From: Luteolibacter ambystomatis
GTDB taxonomy: Bacteria; Verrucomicrobiota; Verrucomicrobiia; Verrucomicrobiales; Akkermansiaceae
NCBI RefSeq assembly: GCF_018137965.1
Contig: NZ_CP073100.1
Coordinates: forward strand, 372,001 to 436,000
Direction of reading: 5' to 3'
Length of the DNA: 64,000 nt
Shown here: positions 67-58,757 of the stretch, piece after piece
How the letters are laid out: each line of letters starts with the position of its first letter
Numbering within the stretch: the first letter of the stretch is position 1
The notes under the pieces: generated by a model
Seen by the model: only the letters and a program-made list of their open reading frames with translations
The model's database searches: none
What the model was told of the DNA's origin: nothing
Translations under genes and position numbers: made by a program

Positions 67-1311
67 TCAATCGGTGGATGCTGTGGCTCCATGCGGACGA
101 ATCATCAGCACCAGCGCCACGGCGATAGCTGCCATGATCCCGAAGGTGGTGAAGATCAGGGCGGGGGATGAACCGGCGTCGCGCATCGCCCCCACCAGTT
201 TCACGGCGAGGCCGCCGACGGTCACACTGGCCATGTTCATCAGCCCGTAACCGGTGGCGCGCAGTTCCGGGCGCACGATCTGGCAGAGGATCGGCATGTT
301 GTTGGCATCGAAGAATCCCCATCCGAGGCCGAAGAGGATCAGGAAGGCGATCGCCACGCCCAGCGACGGCGCATAGCCGATCCCGAAGAGCGCGGGAATG
401 CACACCGCCATTCCGATCGCGCTTACGAACACATGTCCGCGCGGAGTCAGCCGCGTCCATCGGTCCGCGAGAGTGCTACCGATGACGACTCCTCCGATCG
501 AAGCCAGTGTGATCCATAAGGTTGCAGAAACTCCGGCTTCTCCTTGGTTGAGATGGAAGGTCTCCGCGAGAAGGGCGGGCATCCAGCTTTTCACCACCCA
601 GCCGGGCATGGCGGGAAGTGAGAAATACAAGATGAGCAGGATGAACGATCCGATGCCGAAGAGTTGGCGCAGGGACATGAGCACGCCGGGCCGGGGCCCG
701 CGTGTGGCGTCGGAGAAAACCTTCGGCCCGTTTTTCAGACACAGCAGAAGCACCGCCGCGTAAATCACTCCCGCGAGGCCGAACCAATGGAAGGCGGCGC
801 GCCAACCGTGGCTGGAGTCCGCGATGTAGCCACCTTGTCCACCGAGGATGATACCGAGATAGATCCCGGACTGATGAATGCCCACGGCGCGCGAACGTGT
901 GCCACTGCGATGAAAGTCCGCGATCAAGGCCAGTGCCGCGGGAATGTAACACGCCTCGCTGACTCCCATGAGCGCCCGTGCCCACCACATCTGCTGATAG
1001 GTGGTGGCATGTCCCGTCAGCCAGGTGATGGCGGACCACACGCCCAGGCTCACGATGATCACCCATCTCCGGTTGAAACGGTCCGCCACGTAACCACCCA
1101 CCGGACTGAAGAACCCGTAAACGAATAGGAACACCGCCATCAGATCTCCAAAGTGCTCGTTGGTCGCGATGTCCGGTACGCCGGACATGATCGACTGCTT
1201 CATTGTCGAGAAGATCTGGCGGTCCAGGTAGTTCAACAACGCCACCGGCCACAGCAGGGCGACCGTGAGCCATGCCTGACGTGAGGCGTTGTTTGTTGGG
1301 AGATCGGACAT
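67..1311 (-). CDS. MFS permease, probable sialic acid transporter
   Basis: A 414-residue major facilitator superfamily protein with about twelve hydrophobic segments and a typical 'NYLDRQ' motif at the end of the first helix, as in the anion:cation symporter/hexuronate branch. The ATG giving MSDLPTNN is chosen; the open frame extends further upstream but only through the neighbouring gene in another frame. Its start is 4 bp after the nanM-like stop, so the two are cotranscribed. Substrate is inferred from context: mutarotase, sialidases and esterases surround it, and no TRAP or SSS sialate carrier is visible in the window. It would import free sialic acid across the inner membrane. Confidence 0.8.
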   Translation of the reverse strand: MSDLPTNNASRQAWLTVALLWPVALLNYLDRQIFSTMKQSIMSGVPDIATNEHFGDLMAVFLFVYGFFSPVGGYVADRFNRRWVIIVSLGVWSAITWLTGHATTYQQMWWARALMGVSEACYIPAALALIADFHRSGTRSRAVGIHQSGIYLGIILGGQGGYIADSSHGWRAAFHWFGLAGVIYAAVLLLCLKNGPKVFSDATRGPRPGVLMSLRQLFGIGSFILLILYFSLPAMPGWVVKSWMPALLAETFHLNQGEAGVSATLWITLASIGGVVIGSTLADRWTRLTPRGHVFVSAIGMAVCIPALFGIGYAPSLGVAIAFLILFGLGWGFFDANNMPILCQIVRPELRATGYGLMNMASVTVGGLAVKLVGAMRDAGSSPALIFTTFGIMAAIAVALVLMIRPHGATASTD

Positions 1312-1315
1312 GGCT

Positions 1316-2371
1316 TCAGCGATCCGGGTGGAGGATGAAGACCTGGTTGGTGCGGACGCCGGGCCGCACTTCGCCGTTGAAGAAGATCGTGCCGTCCTTC
1401 CAGGGAGCAACCGCAAGTGTGACCGGCGGGGGAAGGGTAAGCATGCCATCCTTGCTCCATGTGCCGGAGACAAGATCGTAGCGATGGACGTCGCGGGCGA
1501 AACCCTTGTGCTCCTCCGGCTTCGCGATACCGACCTGAGTGCCATCGTCACCGGAAACCAGGAGGAGGGAGTGATTCACCACCGGTGCGGGTGTGGCAGC
1601 CCCCACCGCAGGCCGGGGCATGTCGGCGAGTTGCGTCCATCTGCCATCCTTGAACATCCAGGCGTCCTGCAAGTAGGTGCGCTTGGGTTTGCCTTGGTCA
1701 TCGGGTGCCAGCGAGCAACCACCCATGACGAAGAAGGATTCATCGACAGCGGCGGCGGTGGCGAGGATACGGCTCGGAGCAGGCAGTCCCGCCTCCTCCT
1801 TCCAGCCATTCTCCATCGCATCCAGATCCAGCACCCAGTGTTTGGACGAGGCAGTGGTAGAGTCCGGCTTCACGATGCCGCCGCACAGATGCACCTTGCG
1901 GCCGATCATCGCGCCACACATCTGGGCGAGAGGTTCCGGCAGCAGCGGCAGGGCACGGAAACGGGGTGTGGTATCCTCCAGCGTCAGCAGATGGACCTCG
2001 CGGAAATTCCGGGCGGCATCTCCGCCGCCGATGAGAAGCACGCCTTCGGGAACTGTCAGCGAAACGCCGTAACCATTCGCGGCAGGAAGTTTGCCAATCT
2101 CCTGCCACGTCGCATCCGGCTTTGAGAGATCGAGGGAAAAGAGCTTGTCGTGCCACACCTTCGTTCCGCCGTCCCATGGCATCCGGCCATCGGGAAAATT
2201 CGCCCCGCCACCCGCGAGCAGGATGTGGTCCTGCACTCCGGTGAAGGCCCCGGCGAAGCCGCGTTCATCCGGCACCTGTGGCAGCAGCGTGGTCGAGATC
2301 CCGGCCACGCCTGCGGATGGGAGAACGGACAGGGCGGCAGCGATCAGCGACGGTGTCAGGGAGGAACTCAT
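1316..2371 (-). CDS. NanM-like kelch-repeat sialate mutarotase (N-acetylneuraminate epimerase family)
   Basis: A 351-residue secreted beta-propeller with repeated kelch-type strands such as 'HILLAGGGANFPDG', 'GVLLIGGG' and 'SFFVMGGCS'. This is the pattern of the cyclically permuted mutarotase family that includes NanM, which equilibrates alpha- and beta-N-acetylneuraminate after sialidase release. The N-terminus (MSSSLTPSLIAAALSVLPSA) looks like a signal peptide. The ATG at 2371 is preferred over an in-frame TTG four codons earlier. It is the first gene of the operon with the MFS permease. Its promoter region is shared with the divergent regulator and contains a candidate operator at 2466-2488, 94 bp upstream of this ATG. 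Confidence 0.82.
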   Translation of the reverse strand: MSSSLTPSLIAAALSVLPSAGVAGISTTLLPQVPDERGFAGAFTGVQDHILLAGGGANFPDGRMPWDGGTKVWHDKLFSLDLSKPDATWQEIGKLPAANGYGVSLTVPEGVLLIGGGDAARNFREVHLLTLEDTTPRFRALPLLPEPLAQMCGAMIGRKVHLCGGIVKPDSTTASSKHWVLDLDAMENGWKEEAGLPAPSRILATAAAVDESFFVMGGCSLAPDDQGKPKRTYLQDAWMFKDGRWTQLADMPRPAVGAATPAPVVNHSLLLVSGDDGTQVGIAKPEEHKGFARDVHRYDLVSGTWSKDGMLTLPPPVTLAVAPWKDGTIFFNGEVRPGVRTNQVFILHPDR

Positions 2372-2465
2372 GAAAGCAGGCAAGGATCACTTTGGGTGCA
2401 AGGAGGAGTCCTCCGGCAAGCTCATTTTATTTCATGCCGGAATCAAAAATGGCGATAGCCGGAGT

Positions 2466-2488
2466 ACTGGTCTTGAAAACAAACCGGT
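2466..2488. promoter_or_regulatory. Candidate sialate-regulator operator, site 1
   Basis: A 23-bp imperfect palindrome with outer nonamers ACTGGTCTT and CAAACCGGT separated by 5 bp. It lies between the divergent nanM-like operon and the regulator gene. It shares the GGT-N11-ACC core and the following G with five other sites in this locus, which suggests autoregulation plus control of uptake genes. Confidence 0.6.
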
Positions 2489-2540
2489 TTGCCGGTGATT
2501 CATCTTCCGCATGCTTGCATCCCGTTGTGAATCGGGAAAT

Positions 2541-3641
2541 ATGCAAGACATGACGGAGCTGCCAATGCCTTCGCGGGGAAACCTTGTCCATGAAAGCAGC
2601 CGGGTCATGCGGCTGCGCATCCAGGGCGGCGAGTGGAAGGAGTTCCTGCCCGGGGAACGGCGTCTCGCGGAGCTGCTGCAGGTGGGCCGCGATACGGTCC
2701 GTCTCGCCGTGCAACAGCTTGAAAGGGAGGGCACCATCAGCCCGGCTGAGGCGGGGAGCCGACGACGCATTCTGGTCACCACTTTCGCCGCTAGAAAATC
2801 CAACGCGGGCAAACACCTGAAGATCGGCCTCCTCGCTCACCGGCCTCTTGAACAATTGTCCCAGCCTGCGCTTCTGGAGGTGGATCAGATCCGGCGCGCG
2901 ATCGCGGGAAAGGGTGGGTCTTTGGAAGTCTTCGCTCCTTCGTGGTATGAACGCCGTGCTCCGGCAAAGAACCTCGAGGCATTCGTTTCAGAGGAAACCT
3001 GCAGCGCGTGGATTCTGCTGAGATCAAGCGAACCGGTGCAGCGGTGGTTCATGCAGAAGGGACTGCCATGTTTGATCCGGGGCTATCCGCACGAAGGGAT
3101 CGATCTGCCCCATCTCGATGTCGATTGGGAGGCAACCGCTCGCCACGCCGCCGGACGCTTGTGGAGGCTCGGTCACCAGCGCGTAGGTATCCTCGTTCCC
3201 ACGGAGTCACTGCGGGGCATTGCGGCCGCTGTGAAGGGGGCGCTTGATCTTGGCGAGACGGGCTTCCAGCCATTCGAGATTCCGGAGAACGGCACGGTGG
3301 ATGGCATTGCCCGTGGCTTGGCCCGTGCATTGCAGTTGCGGAATCCTCCCACCGCGCTGATTGCCACCCGGCCGCGCCAAGCAGCCACCGTGCTGACATG
3401 GCTGGGTTCCCGTGGCATCCGTGTGCCCGCGGACATCAGTTTGATCAGCCTCGCCCGCGAGCCATTTCTGGAGCATCTTGTGCCGGAGGTTTCCGGTTAC
3501 GATGTCGATCCTGATTCGGTGGCAAAGCAGGTGATGCGCCGCCTCACCTCATTGATCTCCGGCAATCCCCATCCGGGAGGAAATTCATGGATCACTCCGG
3601 AGGTGGTGAAAGGGGCTTCGGTGGCGGCGTTGAAGGCGTGA
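2541..3641 (+). CDS. GntR-type HTH / LacI-type sensor transcriptional regulator
   Basis: About 366 residues. The N-terminal 80 contain a GntR-like winged helix (PGERRLAELLQVGRDTVRLAVQQLEREG). The rest resembles the periplasmic-binding/LacI-type effector domain (LDVDWEATARHAAGRLWRLGHQRVGIL, then a typical C-terminal 'P-x-x-ISLISLAREPFLEHLVP'). This AraR-like architecture normally means a sugar-responsive repressor. ATGs at 2511, 2541, 2550 and 2565 are all in frame; 2541 is chosen as it leaves room for a leader after the operator. It is divergent from the nanM-like operon and convergent with the sialidase gene, with 2 bp between stops. Function as the local sialic acid regulator is inferred from position and the shared operator motif. 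Confidence 0.8.
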   Translation: MQDMTELPMPSRGNLVHESSRVMRLRIQGGEWKEFLPGERRLAELLQVGRDTVRLAVQQLEREGTISPAEAGSRRRILVTTFAARKSNAGKHLKIGLLAHRPLEQLSQPALLEVDQIRRAIAGKGGSLEVFAPSWYERRAPAKNLEAFVSEETCSAWILLRSSEPVQRWFMQKGLPCLIRGYPHEGIDLPHLDVDWEATARHAAGRLWRLGHQRVGILVPTESLRGIAAAVKGALDLGETGFQPFEIPENGTVDGIARGLARALQLRNPPTALIATRPRQAATVLTWLGSRGIRVPADISLISLAREPFLEHLVPEVSGYDVDPDSVAKQVMRRLTSLISGNPHPGGNSWITPEVVKGASVAALKA

Positions 3642-52145: not shown

Positions 52146-52682
52146 ATGGTTCCCCAGGTGATCAAACTCTGTTGCCAAGGATGCGGTGCCGACCTCGAAG
52201 TCAGTGAAGAGGTCCGCTTTCTCACCTGCAACTACTGCCATTCCAAACTCGAGGTGGTGCGTGACGTCACCTCCACCCACACTCGCGTTCTTGAGAAGCT
52301 GGAGCGTGCCACGGATCAGATCGTCGGAAACCTGAAGGTGATCGAACTCCAGAACGATCTCGAGCGGCTGGATCGGGAGTGGGAATCGACGCGCCAGTCA
52401 CTGCTCATTCGCGGGCAGAACGGCGGGCTTTACAAACCTTCGATCCTCGCAGCCGTCATTGGAGGCGGGGCTCCGATCATCGGTGGTATCGTGTTTGCCA
52501 CTTTTGCGGGTAGGCATACGATGGGCTGGTTCCCTCTGATTGGTATCGTATTTTCGTGTTTTGGATTCATCAACCTGGCCACCGGCCTCTCCAAAGCCTC
52601 CGCTTTCCAGAACAAACAGGCGGAATATGAGCGCCTCCGGGAACAAGTGGTCCGGCTGATCGAGCGGGAACGTGGCGTTTGA
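52146..52682 (+). CDS. Zinc-ribbon/coiled-coil membrane protein, paralogue 1
   Basis: 178 residues. The N-terminal zinc ribbon is CCQGCGADLEV ... LTCNYCHSKLEV (two CxxC pairs about 19 apart), then a coiled coil around residues 45-85 (LEKLERATDQIVGNLKVIELQNDLERLDREWE), two hydrophobic helices (about 100-150) and a C-terminal basic helix. Three further copies follow on the same strand. The function is not known; the architecture suggests a membrane-bound adaptor with the ribbon in the cytoplasm. It lies downstream of the ahcY terminator and so has its own promoter. Confidence 0.72.
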   Translation: MVPQVIKLCCQGCGADLEVSEEVRFLTCNYCHSKLEVVRDVTSTHTRVLEKLERATDQIVGNLKVIELQNDLERLDREWESTRQSLLIRGQNGGLYKPSILAAVIGGGAPIIGGIVFATFAGRHTMGWFPLIGIVFSCFGFINLATGLSKASAFQNKQAEYERLREQVVRLIERERGV

Positions 52683-52739
52683 CCGAAACGGTGGCACTAT
52701 CGGCTCGCGTCCTTGATGGGGCCCGCTAGCTTCGGGCAA

Positions 52740-53054
52740 ATGTTTCATCGTCTGGTCATCCTGTTCGCCGCGAGCATCTGTTGCCTGAGCTCCTGCGCCA
52801 TCGTGAAGGCTCCTTTCACCATTGCCGGTGCAGTGGTGGAGGGGACTTACAACGTGGGAGAGAAGATCGTGACCGCACCGATTGACGCGTATGACCGCCG
52901 ACAGGCGCGAAAGGATGCCGAGAAGGAAAAGTCGGACAAGGAGGCGGAAAAGAAAAAGGCCAAGCAGCCTCAGATGCAGCCGCAGCAAGGGATGCCTCAG
53001 CCGGGGACCATCATGGATGCCCAGCCGCTGCCTCCGATTGCTCCGCCACAGTGA
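52740..53054 (+). CDS. Small lipoprotein with charged linker
   Basis: 104 residues. Signal with lipobox LSSC (MFHRLVILFAASICCLSSC) gives a lipidated Cys19, followed by a short hydrophobic region (APFTIAGAVVEGTYNVGEKIVTAPIDAYDRRQ), a Lys/Glu-rich stretch (KDAEKEKSDKEAEKKKAK) and a Gln/Pro-rich end. No family was recognised. It lies between zinc-ribbon paralogues 1 and 2 and may be cotranscribed. The ATG at 52740 is preferred over upstream in-frame starts because it gives a proper signal. Confidence 0.65.
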   Translation: MFHRLVILFAASICCLSSCAIVKAPFTIAGAVVEGTYNVGEKIVTAPIDAYDRRQARKDAEKEKSDKEAEKKKAKQPQMQPQQGMPQPGTIMDAQPLPPIAPPQ

Positions 53055-53135
53055 GTGCGATGGTTCCGCTTCCAAACCCGCTTTGATTCTGGAAGAGCTG
53101 TTTGATCGTAAAAATGGCAGTCTCCCGCTCATCCG

Positions 53136-53672
53136 ATGCCCAGGATCTCCAAAGTCTGTTGCCAGGGATGTGGCTCTCCTCTCAGTGTTGATGAGGATAC
53201 CCGCTACGTAACTTGCAATCATTGCGGATCCAGCCTGGAGGTCATCCATGGGGAGTCGACCACCCATACGCGGTTGTTGGAGCAGCTTCAGAACACGACG
53301 GAGCAACTCACCCAGCAGGTCCGGTTGCTGACACTTCAGAACGATCTGGCGCGCCTCGATAAAGAGTGGGACCGATTTCGAGAATCGGTGCTGCCGCGTT
53401 TGCCCGATGGAACGTTTGTGGAACCATCATCCGCGGATTGGACCACGTTCGGAATGACTGCGGTCGTGGTCGGGGCTATTGCCGGACTTGTTGCGTTTTT
53501 ACCCGGAGCTGGAGCGATCGGGCTCTTCGGGGTGATAGGTATTGCGGTTGGAGTGGGCTGCCTGACGAGGGACAACCGGTCTGCCGCGGACTTTCATCAG
53601 ACGAAGGCGCGCTACCTTTCCCGTCGCGAGCAGTTGCGGCGCGCGATCGAACGGGATGCACGTGCAGCCTGA
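53136..53672 (+). CDS. Zinc-ribbon/coiled-coil membrane protein, paralogue 2
   Basis: 178 residues, the same length as paralogue 1. Zinc ribbon KVCCQGCGSPLSV ... VTCNHCGSSLEV, coiled coil (LLEQLQNTTEQLTQQVRLLTLQNDLARLDKEWD), two adjacent membrane helices (TAVVVGAIAGLVAFLPGAGAIG and onward) and a basic C-terminal helix ending ERDARAA. The ribbon is almost identical to that of paralogue 3, which points to recent tandem duplication. Confidence 0.72.
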   Translation: MPRISKVCCQGCGSPLSVDEDTRYVTCNHCGSSLEVIHGESTTHTRLLEQLQNTTEQLTQQVRLLTLQNDLARLDKEWDRFRESVLPRLPDGTFVEPSSADWTTFGMTAVVVGAIAGLVAFLPGAGAIGLFGVIGIAVGVGCLTRDNRSAADFHQTKARYLSRREQLRRAIERDARAA

Positions 53673-53752
53673 GCCATCTCGGCGTGGAGTGGAATCGGAT
53701 GGAAACTGTGGAATGGCGGCCAATGGTGCCGGCTGATAGCCTCAAGCCGTCC

Positions 53753-54364
53753 ATGAAGGTCACCAAGGTTTGCTGCCAAGGATGCGGGTCACCCCTCGCG
53801 GTGAATGAAACCATCCGCTACGCGACCTGCAACCACTGTGGGTCGAACTTGGAAATCATCCACGACCCAAGTGTCACCCACACCCGGATACTGGAGAAGC
53901 TGGAGCGGACTACGGACACGCTCGCGGATGATGTGAAGATCCTCCAGTTACAGAACGATCTCCAGTTGCTGGACCGGGAGTGGGAGAGATACCGAGAGAC
54001 GGTTTGTTTCCGCAGTGAGAATGGAACTTTGAGCGAGCCATCTGCCGCGTTCCCGGCGGTGGTGCGCGGAGTGACGATCGGTGGCGGCATCATCTTGTGC
54101 ATGGCCGTGTGGCTCGGCAACCTGCCGTGGGGAATGGCGTTGCTGGGGATCGCGGTGCCCATTCTGGGCAATTATGCGGCGCACTCTTACGCCGGGGGAC
54201 TGAGGGACTACCGAAGGGCAAAGGAGCGTTACCAAAGCCGGAGATATGGACTGGTGGCGGCTATCGCTTCGCTGCGGGGCTCCCCCGAACCCCCACGGAA
54301 ACGCCCGGCGTTTCCTGCCAGGATACGGATACCGTTCATGCGTTCCGGCCGGGTGGAAAGCTGA
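53753..54364 (+). CDS. Zinc-ribbon/coiled-coil membrane protein, paralogue 3
   Basis: 203 residues with KVCCQGCGSPLAV ... ATCNHCGSNLEI, coiled coil (ILEKLERTTDTLADDVKILQLQNDLQLLDREWE), two membrane helices and a longer Pro/Arg-rich C-terminus (RGSPEPPRKRPAFPARIRIPF) absent from paralogues 1 and 2. The ATG at 53753 aligns the start with paralogue 2; in-frame ATGs exist further upstream (53723 and earlier). The function is not known. Confidence 0.7.
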   Translation: MKVTKVCCQGCGSPLAVNETIRYATCNHCGSNLEIIHDPSVTHTRILEKLERTTDTLADDVKILQLQNDLQLLDREWERYRETVCFRSENGTLSEPSAAFPAVVRGVTIGGGIILCMAVWLGNLPWGMALLGIAVPILGNYAAHSYAGGLRDYRRAKERYQSRRYGLVAAIASLRGSPEPPRKRPAFPARIRIPFMRSGRVES

Positions 54365-54384
54365 GGAAGTGAACGCTGCCTGAT

Positions 54385-54945
54385 ATGAACATCGTCCGGA
54401 TTTCCTGCAAGGCATGCGATACTCCTCTCGCGATCAGCGAGGGAATCCGGCATCTGACCTGCCATCGATGTGGAGCCCGGCTGGAAGTGTCGTATGATGC
54501 TAGGTCGATTCTAGTCAGTATTGCCGAGGCTTCGGAAAATCAGACGGAAGTGGAGATCCTGAAACTGCGGATGCAGCTGGAGCGGCTCGATGAAGAGAGG
54601 AGGCACGCGCAGGATATCCTCCGTGTGCGGCGGGAGTTCAATTGGAGCCGTGGTCCGGCGATCGCGAATTCGGAGGACTTCGGTTTCCTCTTATTGGTGA
54701 TCGGTCTGGTGGTAGCCGTGATGAGCCTGGTGCATGGCTTGTTCTTTCCAGAATCTTTAGTCGGGCTCGCCATGGCGGTGATCGGAGTCATCTGCCGTTT
54801 GAAGGGATGCGAGGCGACCGCGAAGGAGGAGGCGGATTATGCCCGCCGCAGGCAGGATCTGGTGTCACGGATTCATGCCCTTCAACATCCTTCCGATGGG
54901 GAGGATGCTCCATCCGCCAAGCTGCGGGAGAAGGTCGGTCAATGA
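54385..54945 (+). CDS. Zinc-ribbon/coiled-coil membrane protein, paralogue 4 (divergent)
   Basis: 186 residues. The ribbon is ISCKACDTPLAI ... LTCHRCGARLEV, the coiled coil is shifted (VEILKLRMQLERLDEERRHAQDIL), and two membrane helices (FGFLLLVIGLVVAVMSLVHGLFF and the following segment) are followed by a charged tail. It starts 20 bp after paralogue 3, indicating cotranscription. It is the most diverged copy, so the array probably grew by stepwise duplication. It converges with nuoF. Confidence 0.7.
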   Translation: MNIVRISCKACDTPLAISEGIRHLTCHRCGARLEVSYDARSILVSIAEASENQTEVEILKLRMQLERLDEERRHAQDILRVRREFNWSRGPAIANSEDFGFLLLVIGLVVAVMSLVHGLFFPESLVGLAMAVIGVICRLKGCEATAKEEADYARRRQDLVSRIHALQHPSDGEDAPSAKLREKVGQ

Positions 54946-54952
54946 AACGAGT

Positions 54953-56392
54953 TCAAGCGATTTGCGCTGTCACAGGCGCGCCGGGTTTGGCGGGCTCGTG
55001 ATCGAGATAGCGGCGCTGGGCTTCGCTTTCCTCGTTGTGGGCCTTGCCGTCGTTGTCCGCGTTGGTGTCGGACAGCAGTTCCTCGCGGAACTTCGCCACC
55101 ATGGCTTCGACCGGCCAGGAGCTGGCTTCGCCGAAGGCGCAGATGGTGCGGCCGTCGATTTGATAGGCCACGCTTTCGAGCGTCTCGATGTCCTTCGGCG
55201 AGGCTTCGCCGGTGACGAGACGGTCGGTGATTTTTTTCATCCACATCGAGCCCTCGCGGCAGGGCGTGCACTGGCCGCAGGATTCGTGGGCATAGAAGCT
55301 GTTGATGTTGTTCAGCACCCACGAGATCTTGCGGGTGTCATCGAGGACGATCACGCCACCGGAGCCGGCCATGGAGCCGCAGGCGGCAAGGGTGTCGAAG
55401 TCCATCTGGATGTCCCAGAAGCCGAGGTCCTTCGAGGAGCCGTCCGGGTTCTTGAGCTTGTAGGTTTCGTCGCAGCGCAGGATCTTCGAGGAGGAGCCGC
55501 CGGGAATGACAGCCTTGAACTCGCGCCCGTCCTTCGGGCCACCGCACATGTCGTACAGCAGCTCGCGCATGGTGATCTTGCCGACCTCAACTTCGAAATA
55601 GCCAGGTTTCTTCACATCGCCGGAGACGCACAGGATGCGGGTGCCGGTATTGCGGGCCACGCCGAGCTTCGCGTAATCGTCACCGCCCATGCGAATGATG
55701 TGCTTCACGTGGCAGAGTGACTCCACGTTGTTCACGATCGTAGGGCTCATGTAGAGGCCGAGCGCGGCTGGGAAATAGGGTGGCTTGATGCGCGGGTAGG
55801 GGCGCTTGCCCTCGAGGGATTCGATCAGGCCGGTCTCCTCGCCGCAGATGTAGGCACCCGCGCCGCGGTGGACGTAGATTTCCAGATCGAAGCCGGAGCC
55901 GAGGATGTTCTTGCCGAGGAAACCGTGGGCGCGGGCTTCATCCAGCGCCTTTTCCATCAGGATGGCGGCGGCGGGGAATTCCTCGCGGAGATAGATATAG
56001 GCGGTGTGCGCGCCAGTGGCGAAGCAGGAGATCACCATGCCCTCGATGAGCTGGTGTGGGTCCTGGTGGACGATGTAGCGGTCCTTGAAAGTGCCGGGCT
56101 CGGACTCGTCGCCATTGCAGATGAGATACACCGGCTTGGTGTTGTTCGGTGGGATGAAGGTCCACTTCATGCCGGTCGGGAAACCCGCACCACCTCGGCC
56201 GCGCAGGCCGGATTTTTTCACTTCTTCCGTGATGTCCTTCGGCGCCATGGTGAACGCCTTCTTCAGATCCTCATAACCGCCATCCGCGATGTAGGTGCCG
56301 ATGGAAGGGTCCCAGCCCTCGCGGTCGACGTTCTTGAAGATCAGGCGGTATTCGCGCGGATCGGGCTGCTTGCCGGCTTTGTAGGTGATCAC
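54953..56392 (-). CDS. nuoF: NADH-quinone oxidoreductase subunit F
   Basis: 479 residues. The FMN/NADH site is 'LRGRGGAGFPTGMKW', 'CNGDESEPGTFKDR' and 'GAYICGEETGLIESLEGKRPYPRIKPP'. The [4Fe-4S] N3 site is 'SCGQCTPCREG' with a later Cys in 'DGRTICAFG'. It accepts electrons from NADH in complex I. It is about 40-50 residues longer than typical because of a charged C-terminal extension (KAHNEESEAQRRYLDHEPAKPG). It follows nuoE; no nuoG follows on this strand, where zinc-ribbon genes converge. Confidence 0.94.
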   Translation of the reverse strand: MITYKAGKQPDPREYRLIFKNVDREGWDPSIGTYIADGGYEDLKKAFTMAPKDITEEVKKSGLRGRGGAGFPTGMKWTFIPPNNTKPVYLICNGDESEPGTFKDRYIVHQDPHQLIEGMVISCFATGAHTAYIYLREEFPAAAILMEKALDEARAHGFLGKNILGSGFDLEIYVHRGAGAYICGEETGLIESLEGKRPYPRIKPPYFPAALGLYMSPTIVNNVESLCHVKHIIRMGGDDYAKLGVARNTGTRILCVSGDVKKPGYFEVEVGKITMRELLYDMCGGPKDGREFKAVIPGGSSSKILRCDETYKLKNPDGSSKDLGFWDIQMDFDTLAACGSMAGSGGVIVLDDTRKISWVLNNINSFYAHESCGQCTPCREGSMWMKKITDRLVTGEASPKDIETLESVAYQIDGRTICAFGEASSWPVEAMVAKFREELLSDTNADNDGKAHNEESEAQRRYLDHEPAKPGAPVTAQIA

Positions 56393-56415: not shown

Positions 56416-57003
56416 TCAGTGTCCGGCGGTGGAATTCGAGTAACTGTCGAGCAGGGCCTGTGCTTTGTCAGGAGTGATGGCCTCATGGAAGTCATCGTTC
56501 ACCATGCAGACCGGAGCGGTGCCGCAGGAGGCGAGGCACTCCGCGAATTCGACGGAGAATTTGCCGCAGGGGGAAACCGCAACGGGATGGTGGTGGGAGT
56601 CCGAGGTGCTGCGGTTGATGTCGGTGAGCTGGCAGAGCTTTTCCATCAGCTCATAGGAGCCGCCCATCGCACAGGAGAGCGTGCGGCAGACGCGGATGTG
56701 GTTCACACCGGGAGCCGACTGACGGAAGCCGGGGTAGAAGGTCACCACTTCCGCCACCTTGATCGGCTCGATGCCGATGCGCTGCGCGACCCAGACGATC
56801 GCCTCCGCGGAGATGAAGCCGTGGTGGTGCTGGACGTAGTGCAACAGGGGTAGCACCGCCGAGCGCTTCTGGTTGTCCGGGAACTGGGCGAGACGCTTGG
56901 CCGCCTCGGCTTCCAGCTCGGCCGTCACCGCGAACGGAGCAAAGAATTTCGATCCCGGTGTTTCCGGAGATGCGACGAGGTCTTCGACGTTGGAATGGGA
57001 CAT
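56416..57003 (-). CDS. nuoE: NADH-quinone oxidoreductase subunit E
   Basis: 195 residues of the thioredoxin-like [2Fe-2S] family, with 'HIRVCRTLSCAMGGSYELM' (CxxxxC) and 'FAECLASCGTAPVC' (CxxxC) as ligands of cluster N1a. It partners with NuoF in the NADH dehydrogenase module. The start at 57003 (MSHSNVED) is chosen from family length. Its ATG lies 14 bp downstream (on the minus strand) of the inverted end of the GxxExxY cassette, so it could have lost or changed its spacing to nuoD. Confidence 0.93.
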   Translation of the reverse strand: MSHSNVEDLVASPETPGSKFFAPFAVTAELEAEAAKRLAQFPDNQKRSAVLPLLHYVQHHHGFISAEAIVWVAQRIGIEPIKVAEVVTFYPGFRQSAPGVNHIRVCRTLSCAMGGSYELMEKLCQLTDINRSTSDSHHHPVAVSPCGKFSVEFAECLASCGTAPVCMVNDDFHEAITPDKAQALLDSYSNSTAGH

Positions 57004-57017
57004 GGGGTGCAGATTTT

Positions 57018-57490
57018 TTAGCCGCAAAAAGGCGCAAGAAGGACGCAAAAATCAGATACTGGATGTTTGCGGGAATTCGGGGAATTCCTGAGAAAGCGCG
57101 TATTTCCGGATTTCGAGTTTGGGTGCTCCGAAGTTGATGAGCAGGCCGTGTTCCCTGCGGCAGGCACGGAGGTAGCCAAGGAGTTGGGCGGTGTGTTCGG
57201 GCGCGAGAGCTCGGGCGGCTTTGATTTCCACAATCAATTCGCCTGAAACCAACAGATCGATGTCGAGGTTGCCGAGTAAGGTTCCATCCTCATCAAGAAC
57301 CTGAAGAGGGACCTGTCGCTCGGCTGGGATGCCTTTTTTGTTCAGTCGATGGTGCAGACCGATTTCGTAAACGCTCTCCTTGTGTCCCTGACGCAAATAG
57401 CTGTGCAGGGCGAAGGAGGTTTCCCTCACCTGATCGCACAGTTGGAAGATTGGATCCTTTTGCGTCATTTTTTCGCCTTTTTGCGGCTAA
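57018..57490 (-). mobile_element. GxxExxY gene cassette with inverted terminal repeats inside nuo genes
   Basis: 17-bp perfect inverted repeats (TTAGCCGCAAAAAGGCG at 57018-57034 and its complement at 57474-57490) bracket a single 138-codon gene. Similarity extends inward (GACGCAAAA on both sides), and the gene's own ATG lies in the extended right arm. The 473-bp unit fills the gap between nuoD and nuoE. No transposase is present and no clear target duplication was seen. Confidence 0.7.
57052..57468 (-). CDS. GxxExxY family protein (PD-(D/E)XK-like)
   Basis: 138 residues. The name-giving motif is GHKESVY (GxxExxY, about 28-34), followed by 'NLDIDLLVSGELIVEIKAARAL', where the Asp and E-x-K match a PD-(D/E)XK nuclease core, and 'GYLRACRREHGLLINFG'. 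Such proteins are short, widely scattered in environmental bacteria and often sit in short repeat-flanked insertions. The biochemical role is not established. It is co-directional with nuoD and nuoE, so the insertion would be transcribed with them. Confidence 0.85.
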   Translation of the reverse strand: MTQKDPIFQLCDQVRETSFALHSYLRQGHKESVYEIGLHHRLNKKGIPAERQVPLQVLDEDGTLLGNLDIDLLVSGELIVEIKAARALAPEHTAQLLGYLRACRREHGLLINFGAPKLEIRKYALSQEFPEFPQTSSI

Positions 57491-57494
57491 GATC

Positions 57495-58757
57495 TCAGCG
57501 GTCGCACTCACCCATGACGAAGTCCAGCGAACCGAGGATCGCGGGGATGTCGGAGACCATGTGGCCGGGGAGCAGCTTCGAGGTGATCGAAAGGTTACAG
57601 AAGGAGGGGCTGCGGATCTTCAGGCGGTGCGGGACACCGCCGCCGGTGGAGTGGATGTAGAAGCCGAGCTCGCCCTTCGGGTTTTCCGCGCCGAAGTAAA
57701 CCTCGCCCTTCGGTGCATCGATGCCCTGGGTGGCGACGATGAAGTGGTGGATGAGTTCCTCCATCGACATGAGCACGCGCTCCTTGTCCGGCAGCATGCT
57801 CTTGGTGTCGGCGAGGTTCACCGGACCGGCGGGCATGGTGTTGAGGACCTGGCGGCAGATGCGGATCGACTGGCGCATTTCCTCCATGCGGACTTGGTAG
57901 CGGGCGTAGCAGTCGCCCTCTTCCGCGATGACCACGTCGAAATCGTATTGCTCGTAGCCGAGGTAGGGACGGTCCTTGCGCAGATCGCGGGTGACACCGG
58001 AGGCGCGCAGGTTCGGGCCGGTGAGGCCCCACGCGATGGCGGCTTCCTTGCTGATGACCCCGATGTCGCACATGCGGTCGAGGTAGATCTTGTTCTTGTC
58101 GAGCAGCTTCGAGATTTCCCCGATGGTCACCTCGCACTCGTTGAGGAACTGGCGGGTGGATTGCTCGAAGCCCGCGGGCATGTCGCGGAGCTGGCCGCCG
58201 ACGCGGGTGTAGGAGGTGGTGAAGCGGGCGCCGGTGAGTTGCTCGCAGAGGTTGTAGATCTTTTCGCGCTCCGTGAAGGTGTAGAGGAACACAGTCATCG
58301 CGCCCACGTCCATGGCGCAGACGCCCACGCCGAGCATGTGGGAGGAAAGGCGGGCCAGCTCGCAGCACAACACGCGCAGGGCCTGACCACGTGGTGGCAG
58401 GGTCCATCCCATCAGCTTTTCAACCGCGCAGGCGTAGGCGACGTTGTTGGCAAGCGGAGCGAGGTAATCCAACCGGTCCGTGTAGGGCACGAACTGGTTG
58501 TAGTGCATGTTTTCCGCGATCTTCTCGTCTCCGCGGTGAAGGAAACCAACGTCCGGATCCGCCTTGGTGATGACCTCGCCATCGAGTTCGATGATGAGGC
58601 GCAGCACCCCGTGGGTGGCCGGGTGGGAGGGGCCCATGTTGAGCACCATCTTTTCGCCCATCAGGTCGTCCGTCTCGGCATGATAATGATCTGCCGCCGC
58701 AGCCGTGGCGCGGGCGAGGGTATCGGGGGCTTCGAATTCGGTGGTACGGTTGCTCAT
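57495..58757 (-). CDS. nuoD: NADH-quinone oxidoreductase subunit D
   Basis: 420 residues of the 49-kDa/hydrogenase-like subunit: 'MGPSHPATHGVLRLIIELDGEVI', 'VGFLHRGDEKIAENMHYNQFVPYTDRLDYLAP', 'GALTVFLYTF'-like helix region and the C-terminal 'ILGSLDFVMGECDR'. The His/Asp of the quinone pocket is in 'GPSHPATHG'. It is the first gene of the D-(insert)-E-F series; nuoA, B, C, G, H and the rest are not in the window, so complex I genes are split in this genome. Confidence 0.94.
   Translation of the reverse strand: MSNRTTEFEAPDTLARATAAAADHYHAETDDLMGEKMVLNMGPSHPATHGVLRLIIELDGEVITKADPDVGFLHRGDEKIAENMHYNQFVPYTDRLDYLAPLANNVAYACAVEKLMGWTLPPRGQALRVLCCELARLSSHMLGVGVCAMDVGAMTVFLYTFTEREKIYNLCEQLTGARFTTSYTRVGGQLRDMPAGFEQSTRQFLNECEVTIGEISKLLDKNKIYLDRMCDIGVISKEAAIAWGLTGPNLRASGVTRDLRKDRPYLGYEQYDFDVVIAEEGDCYARYQVRMEEMRQSIRICRQVLNTMPAGPVNLADTKSMLPDKERVLMSMEELIHHFIVATQGIDAPKGEVYFGAENPKGELGFYIHSTGGGVPHRLKIRSPSFCNLSITSKLLPGHMVSDIPAILGSLDFVMGECDR

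Follow-up and report, generated by a model that had tools for sequence, protein, structure and literature searches.

A single GxxExxY gene lies between nuoD and nuoE of Luteolibacter ambystomatis, framed by inverted repeats, in the 64-kb stretch of DNA analysed here (the window). This arrangement raises the question of what kind of element the gene and its repeats form, how it came to stand among respiratory genes, and what might move such repeats.

Results

A lone gene with inverted ends between nuoD and nuoE

The unit and its neighbours comprise the following features.

57052–57468, minus strand: GxxExxY gene, open reading frame of 138 aa with TIGR04256 and PF13366 matches
57018–57050, plus strand: terminal repeat on the 3' side of the gene, TTAGCCGCAAAAAGGCGCAAGAAGGACGCAAAA; its outer sequence recurs in dispersed copies
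57458–57490, minus strand: terminal repeat on the 5' side of the gene, reading TTAGCCGCAAAAAGGCGAAAAAATGACGCAAAA on the minus strand, with the start codon inside
57495–58757, minus strand: nuoD, upstream neighbour, co-directional with the GxxExxY gene, with profile matches
56416–57003, minus strand: nuoE, downstream neighbour, co-directional; PF01257 match over its cut-off, NuoE family model match under that model's own cut-off
54953–56392, minus strand: putative nuoF open reading frame downstream of nuoE, recognised from sequence and used as the nuoF query

A sequence-only reading of this stretch had described a GxxExxY gene bounded by perfect 17-bp inverted repeats, and this description holds: TTAGCCGCAAAAAGGCG occurs exactly at 57018–57034 on the plus strand and at 57474–57490 on the minus strand. 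These were the only two sites in the 64-kb window at up to 3 mismatches, and shuffled sequences contained a mean of 0.13 sites, with none of 100 shuffles reaching two. The further similarity noted beyond the 17 bp was also found, the full inverted repeat measuring 42 nt at 83% (57009–57050 and 57458–57499), and its arms are built as runs of units, GCCGCAAAAAG, GCGCAAGAAG and GACGCAAAA. As proposed, the repeat takes in the start codon region, the ATG of the gene (57466–57468) lying inside the right-hand, or 5', arm; an AAAAAGG stretch 5' of this codon could be a candidate ribosome site. The unit had been said to fill the space between nuoD and nuoE exactly. The fit is tight but not complete, with 4 bp left between the 17-bp repeat and the nuoD stop codon and 14 bp to the nuoE ATG. 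According to the open reading frame list and the profile matches, GxxExxY is the sole recognised gene in the 473-bp unit, in line with the description of the cassette as transposase-free; neither a transposase of its own nor a Cas1 integrase was recognised between the terminal repeats of the window unit. Elsewhere in the window (52146–54945), tandem-looking paralogous open reading frames with CCQGCGSPL...CNHCGS zinc-ribbon-like motifs were observed.

Predicted fold and family of the GxxExxY protein

The protein matched TIGR04256 (GxxExxY; E = 2.4e-31, 108.5 bits, cut-off 35) and PF13366 (PDDEXK_3; E = 1.8e-27, 96.5 bits, cut-off 22). Residues D71, E81, K83, Q95 and Y99 were invariant in 46 aligned proteins, L115 having been excluded from the alignment for its stop codon, and a Q..Y spacing is a mark of RecB/Cas4-type nucleases. 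For the AlphaFold2 model (mean pLDDT 91.4), the top Foldseek match in the PDB was SSO0001 (E = 4.1e-4), which we take to be a Cas4 protein, followed by AddAB, AdnAB, MGME1 and others including lambda exonuclease. VIA-align superposed 108 residues of SSO0001 at 4.9 Å with Z = 9.2, the sole chain with Z of at least 8 among 1000; fold likenesses with Z below 8 (restriction enzymes, Hjc, and the fdxN excision controlling factor at Z = 5.4) were set aside as evidence. On this model, the protein is predicted to be a compact Cas4/RecB-like PD-(D/E)XK nuclease. An HUH tyrosine transposase was not matched, the profile matches being only to PDDEXK_3 and GxxExxY and the predicted fold being PD-(D/E)XK.

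Assignment to a defence family was rejected, since PADLOC returned only five Cas4 models (best E = 1.3e-4) and one weak match to PDC-S02 (E = 0.058), and PHROGs gave no match to GxxExxY up to E = 1. A role as phage or plasmid cargo was likewise rejected, as one canonical protein used as query was found in 0 of 50,697 phage records and 8 of 72,556 plasmid records. PMC8934634, a paper on reverse transcriptases, reports that a gene with a GxxExxY domain adjoins a CRISPR-associated reverse transcriptase, at a position where a different tool had found cas4.

Iterated inverted ends in many phyla

A diverse set of 80 loci, the top-ranking ones among 583 confirmed stretches, was obtained with a canonical GxxExxY query. 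These included Verrucomicrobia, Planctomycetes, Proteobacteria, Acidobacteria, Chloroflexi, Cyanobacteria and Bacteroidetes, as well as a Spirochaetota MAG and a Methanosarcinales archaeon. After removal of 6 loci with short flanks, 74 were testable, and in 63 of them the flank inverted-repeat score surpassed each of 200 scores from randomly chosen positions in that locus (p ≤ 0.01 in 64); the remaining 11 failed to beat all controls. In the same 74 loci, CRCNRAG had a density of 3.0 per 220 bp on the upstream side and 3.1 on the downstream side, compared with 0.28 in controls. The repeats are runs of units of about 8–10 bp, often CRCNRAG, with a type that tends to follow protein subfamily, and such runs bracketed the gene in 57 of the 80 loci.

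Within the window's family, 27 of 32 loci scored at least 13.5, both loci of the window's genome (G000) counted. Mismatched locus pairs in the family averaged 7.5–15 and reached up to 31.5, because loci have repeat types in common. Among 29 relatives of the window protein from across the class (52–67% identity), 28 reached 13.5, a count that carries no shuffled control. By reading, about two thirds of these 28 window-type units have arms resembling TTAGCC[G/A]CAAAAAGGC[G/A]C, and the rest have related units. The exceptions were of several kinds: no notable repeat (L196 in the window-type set) or no notable inverted repeat (L063, L065, L067 and L077 in the family set), a best inverted repeat that was not iterated (L101, L119, L146), and a best arm pair in the opposite orientation (L102, L124, L197, L205, L207).

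Protein similarity and repeat similarity were correlated over 121 units (Mantel r = 0.374; maximum of 999 permutations 0.104), a set in which a few loci occur in two collections (e.g. L074/L082). The correlation rose only above a protein similarity of 0.5, with no trend below; such a correlation would also be expected if gene and repeat descend together. When loci were compared within four genomes (20 loci, 18 used), mean repeat similarity was 0.269 within and 0.257 between genomes, so the repeat type does not appear to be set by host identity, in what is a weak test with few close protein pairs.

Repeat pairs without a gene

The window's genome is one contig of 5.32 Mb with two GxxExxY genes. 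A search for other copies of the repeat, suggested by the sequence-only reading, was successful: at up to 2 mismatches the 17-mer had 19 sites (10 forward, 9 reverse) against 1 for the reversed-pattern control. Two of these sites are the ends of the nuoD–nuoE unit, and seven are apparently single; two of the single sites (L012, L020) have sequence in common with a larger, palindromic repeat seen in the sister species G050. The repeat was found without the gene as well, in five gene-less inverted pairs of 83–187 bp (starts 237838, 2116675, 2148268, 2181332 and 4935191). The second GxxExxY gene of this genome, between nuoH and nuoI, carries a different repeat made of runs of ACAGAATT-like units, which suggests that in G000 the repeat follows the protein type and not the host. 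A ACAGAATT-type scan of G000 returned 0 matches, with a pattern so strict that it missed even the known copy.

The flanks of the 80 top-ranking loci out of 583 contained 40 pairs of unit runs that face inward and enclose no gene (51–180 bp, at 26 loci); 12 lie no more than 300 bp from the GxxExxY gene, and the other 28 lie beyond that distance. Outward pairs at more than 300 bp from the gene numbered 10 (spacing up to 900 bp). The reversed-string control gave 2 pairs. Scanning with each locus's own repeat yielded 31 further sites, compared with 2 for the backwards repeat.

GxxExxY genes are common, occurring in 80 of the 145 genomes searched in the window's family. Of the 613 sites of ACCGCNAAGNCGCNAAG in the 145 genomes, 593 fall in the 80 that have GxxExxY and the other 20 in the 65 that lack it, and at least 3 sites were present in 35/80 and 1/65 genomes, respectively. 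The repeats of the genes themselves are part of these totals, which are uncorrected for phylogeny. G097 had 63 such sites with 3 GxxExxY genes, and G023, with 12 sites and no detected GxxExxY gene, is a counter-example. The window repeat type is rare, being found in 11 of the 145 family genomes (19 sites in G000, 28 in G050 and 1–4 in the others). Counting many of the 28 sites of G050 as miniatures was rejected, as these are part of the larger palindromic repeat that includes the motif. This repeat, GCCTCCGCCTCCCGGAAGACC..., contains TTAGCCGC and has many copies (many of L238, L241–L254 and L256). Four window-type sites occur in G066, which has only a more distant GxxExxY.

Two further observations concern repeats. 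At L144 (2050–3484), four gene-less repeat pairs lie inside an open reading frame of 987 aa (563–3523), which translates them as NHEDTKGTKG-like repeats resembling palindromic elements inserted in proteins. At L006 (2509–2635), a repeat of about 113 bp, unrelated to the unit, has at least 40 matches at 79–89% in G050.

Compared across these genomes, the nuoD–nuoE unit is apparently a member of a large class that combines a lone nuclease gene, iterated inverted ends and gene-less miniatures, and we hold with high confidence that this unit class and its miniatures exist.

Candidate mobilising factors

The wide pairing of the GxxExxY gene with such repeats suggests its own product as the factor, and we rate the chance that the nuclease mobilises the repeats at about even. 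The sequence-only reading had envisaged a minimal element moved in trans. Gene-less repeats and the lack of a transposase agree with that proposal, but the gene–repeat pairing points to the unit's own product; movement in trans is possible. In such a scheme, an unrelated transposase would move units and miniatures, and the nuclease would be cargo serving defence or repair. Short gene-free inverted pairs are indeed typical of non-autonomous elements, but no transposase was found in any inward pair of up to 3.5 kb in the flanks (up to 8 kb per side) of the best 80 of 583 loci. Only two inward pairs of 300–3500 bp were present in these flanks when the locus's own gene was excluded. One of these gene-sized pairs (L087, 5150–5567, Rhodocyclaceae) again holds a GxxExxY gene, about 2.4 kb from the first and flanked by trpE-like and trpG-like open reading frames recognised from sequence; the other (L154) holds an open reading frame that reads as Fe-S scaffold-like. 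The different repeats of the two divergent GxxExxY genes in G000 also speak against a common foreign transposase, as does the apparent lack of a fixed target duplication: no consistent length emerged among 93 units, the best of some 800 offset-length combinations being a 4-bp match in 5 of 93 (0.52 expected). Cargo moved by an unrelated transposase is therefore unlikely in our judgement. We lean instead towards a RAYT/REPIN-like system with an unrelated enzyme, comprising the lone GxxExxY nuclease, the iterated inverted ends and the miniatures.

Occupied and unoccupied sites and the orientation of neighbours

The miniature at 2181332 of G000 had no counterpart at the matching place in the sister species G050, in a comparison where divergence of the right flank leaves the precise limit uncertain. 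G050 carries a ACAGAATT-type miniature where G000 has the one at 2148268, and the two species share the miniature at 237838. A gap of 488 bp separates the nuoH and nuoI coding blocks of G000, compared with 47 bp in G050; the short gap of G050 carries a repeat-like start, a possible scar, so that loss is as likely there as the unit never having been inserted. Between nuoK and nuoL, G050 has a GxxExxY gene (about 0.6 kb) and G000 has 33 bp; the repeat pair of G050 precedes this gene and does not surround it.

GxxExxY genes were seen at other nuo junctions, namely nuoH–nuoI (G000, G172), nuoK–nuoL (G050) and beside nuoH (G109), at loci L001 1397–1911, L265 984–1900, L056 and L070. All of them run with the nuo genes, whose cluster may be a preferred location for GxxExxY genes. 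Gene-less iterated repeats of TTTAGGATTTAGTGC and GTAAATGG types were also observed in nuo junctions (L268, nuoJ–nuoK of G000; L265 920–990), with further places at L267 2020–2068 and the nuoD–nuoE junction of L024; these possibly belong to a different cassette gene.

Neighbours were assigned for 106 of 122 repeat-bearing units by a rough rule, the longest open reading frame within 1.5 kb; the rest had no flank or no neighbouring frame. Both neighbours ran in the GxxExxY direction in 72 cases and against it in 7 (binomial p = 1e-14), and 27 were convergent or divergent. Repeats lay a median of 10.5 bp from the upstream neighbouring frame and 14 bp from the downstream one, and overlaps were seen in 23 and 41 cases, respectively. 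No sigma-70-like promoter was matched around the window unit, a weak test with an expectation of 0.2. The earlier suggestion that the unit relies on expression of its host operon fits the co-orientation and, weakly, the promoter result, and transcription from the operon would be consistent with both.

Regulation or RNA processing provides another explanation, with the repeats as an operator or an RNase III hairpin and the dispersed pairs as regulated sites or relics. All five gene-less pairs of G000 fold as strong hairpins (z −4.1 to −8.5), a property expected of any inverted pair; in addition, one arm contains the start codon, and iterated units could be operators. However, gene-less pairs stand at unrelated sites and differ in presence between sister species, the sites of G097 far outnumber its genes, and whole units occur in genomes from many families of the class. 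We regard this explanation as improbable.

History of the nuoD–nuoE copy

A nuoE match was present in 56 of 61 same-genus genomes, and the best 30 of the 56 gave loci. An intact unit occupied the nuoD–nuoE junction in 5 of these 30. Another 2 had probable internally deleted remnants, one much decayed (G037) and one in which the coding core is lost and both repeats are intact (G041); the latter represents a route by which a miniature would arise. One junction had a 42-bp gap with GCGGCTAA, a possible scar, and one had another kind of inverted repeat. A stretch of about 700–800 bp with another gene filled 11 junctions (thioredoxin-like, by reading, in the six translated), and 10 had a short gap of 23–63 bp, providing the relatives with an empty site that had been proposed as a check.

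The occupied genomes were scattered on the NuoD/NuoE tree. The nuoD–nuoE proteins of 8 genomes (the 5 surveyed plus G163, G083 and G092) formed one clade (support 99/98) that stands apart from 27 window-type proteins at other places; six copies are intact and two (G083, G092) have stop codons. We read this single supported clade as the outcome of one insertion long ago, followed by vertical descent and many losses. The idea of a recent insert at this junction was accordingly rejected, and recent mobility there is not supported. Two origins, suggested by a count of labels, were dropped because L165/L174, L190 and L198 are also at nuoD–nuoE. The sequence-only reading had set vertical inheritance, with the unit in all relatives, against mobility; the unit is present in only 5 of the best 30 relatives, but its descent does read as vertical, with losses.

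Estimates of dN/dS were 0.168/1.465 (about 0.12) for G000–G050 and 0.031/0.260 for G011–G001, values that show purifying selection on intact copies. Synonymous divergence between G000 and G050 was 1.47 for the unit, 0.56 for nuoE and 0.38 for nuoD; the higher value of the unit leaves strict vertical descent unproven and leaves room for replacement in place. A homing-like selfish gene, whose nuclease would cut allelic empty sites so that recombination copies the unit and the dispersed pairs are decayed copies, would suit a PD-(D/E)XK nuclease as sole recognised gene and one persistent site with purifying selection and many losses, but it is very improbable given the 27 window-type proteins away from nuoD–nuoE, and it leaves the iterated terminal repeats and many gene-less copies unexplained.

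Discussion

In the RAYT/REPIN-like system that we favour, the resident nuclease would bind its own iterated repeats, probably as the single-stranded-DNA hairpin of an inverted pair, and would cut at or near the repeat ends. This would allow short repeat pairs, and on rare occasions an entire unit, to be excised or copied into gene gaps with no fixed target duplication. One gene copy would have settled once at nuoD–nuoE, where it would be read with the operon; selection would have kept it in some species, and others would have lost it or let it decay. Sequence comparison shows the unit, its repeats, the miniatures, occupied and unoccupied sites, covariation of repeat and protein, co-orientation, a common nuoD–nuoE origin and purifying selection on intact copies; binding, cutting and mobilisation by the GxxExxY protein, and expression from the nuo transcript, are what we infer.

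The likeness to RAYT/REPIN lies in a lone enzyme gene with inverted repeats and in gene-less inverted doublets between genes of the same genome, and also in a low-copy chromosomal enzyme, as RAYT is. The two differ in the enzyme, a PD-(D/E)XK Cas4/RecB-like nuclease on the one hand and a tyrosine transposase on the other, and in the repeats, which are runs of 8–10-bp units around GxxExxY. As both enzyme and repeat design differ, the GxxExxY unit is not a member of RAYT/REPIN. For REPINs, PMC3116915 describes a RAYT enzyme gene tied to inverted repeats and dispersed gene-less doublets predicted as hairpins, and deep reads were searched there for junctions from which a REPIN is missing.

Like MITEs, GxxExxY miniatures are short, gene-free inverted pairs between genes, with one copy (2181332) absent in the sister species and an internal-deletion derivative among the units (G041). 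Unlike MITEs, they have no parent transposase in the flanks examined, those of the 80 top-ranking loci out of 583, and no target duplication of consistent length was seen. Casposons share a Cas4-like nuclease and terminal inverted repeats, but their gene content includes Cas1 and a polymerase, and the GxxExxY unit has neither, consisting of a single gene of about 0.4 kb. The likeness to Cas4 and solo-Cas4 is one of fold, seen in the SSO0001 matches and the PADLOC Cas4 models; the GxxExxY protein differs in its 138 aa, its PF13366 domain and its place among nuo genes. The three Cas4 Pfam families analysed in PMC5704561 do not include PF13366.

The unit of gene and repeats, which recurs in many bacterial phyla and in one archaeon, has the look of a mobile-type element that had gone unrecognised. 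A description of the GxxExxY–repeat association was not found in the open-licence literature, which is not the same as absence in print. More tentatively, and with somewhat less than even confidence, GxxExxY may be the mobility enzyme of a cross-domain class defined by a lone Cas4-like nuclease, iterated ends, its own miniatures and settling in operon gaps along transcription, with no DDE, HUH, serine or tyrosine transposase.

The open-licence literature says almost nothing on the GxxExxY family. A defined repeat architecture gives it a testable role and ties it to many dispersed hairpin repeats. If the enzyme moves the repeats, it would represent a new enzymatic route to DNA mobility, Cas4-related in fold, and the nuo genes provide a case of a respiratory operon that gathers and sheds such units over long times.
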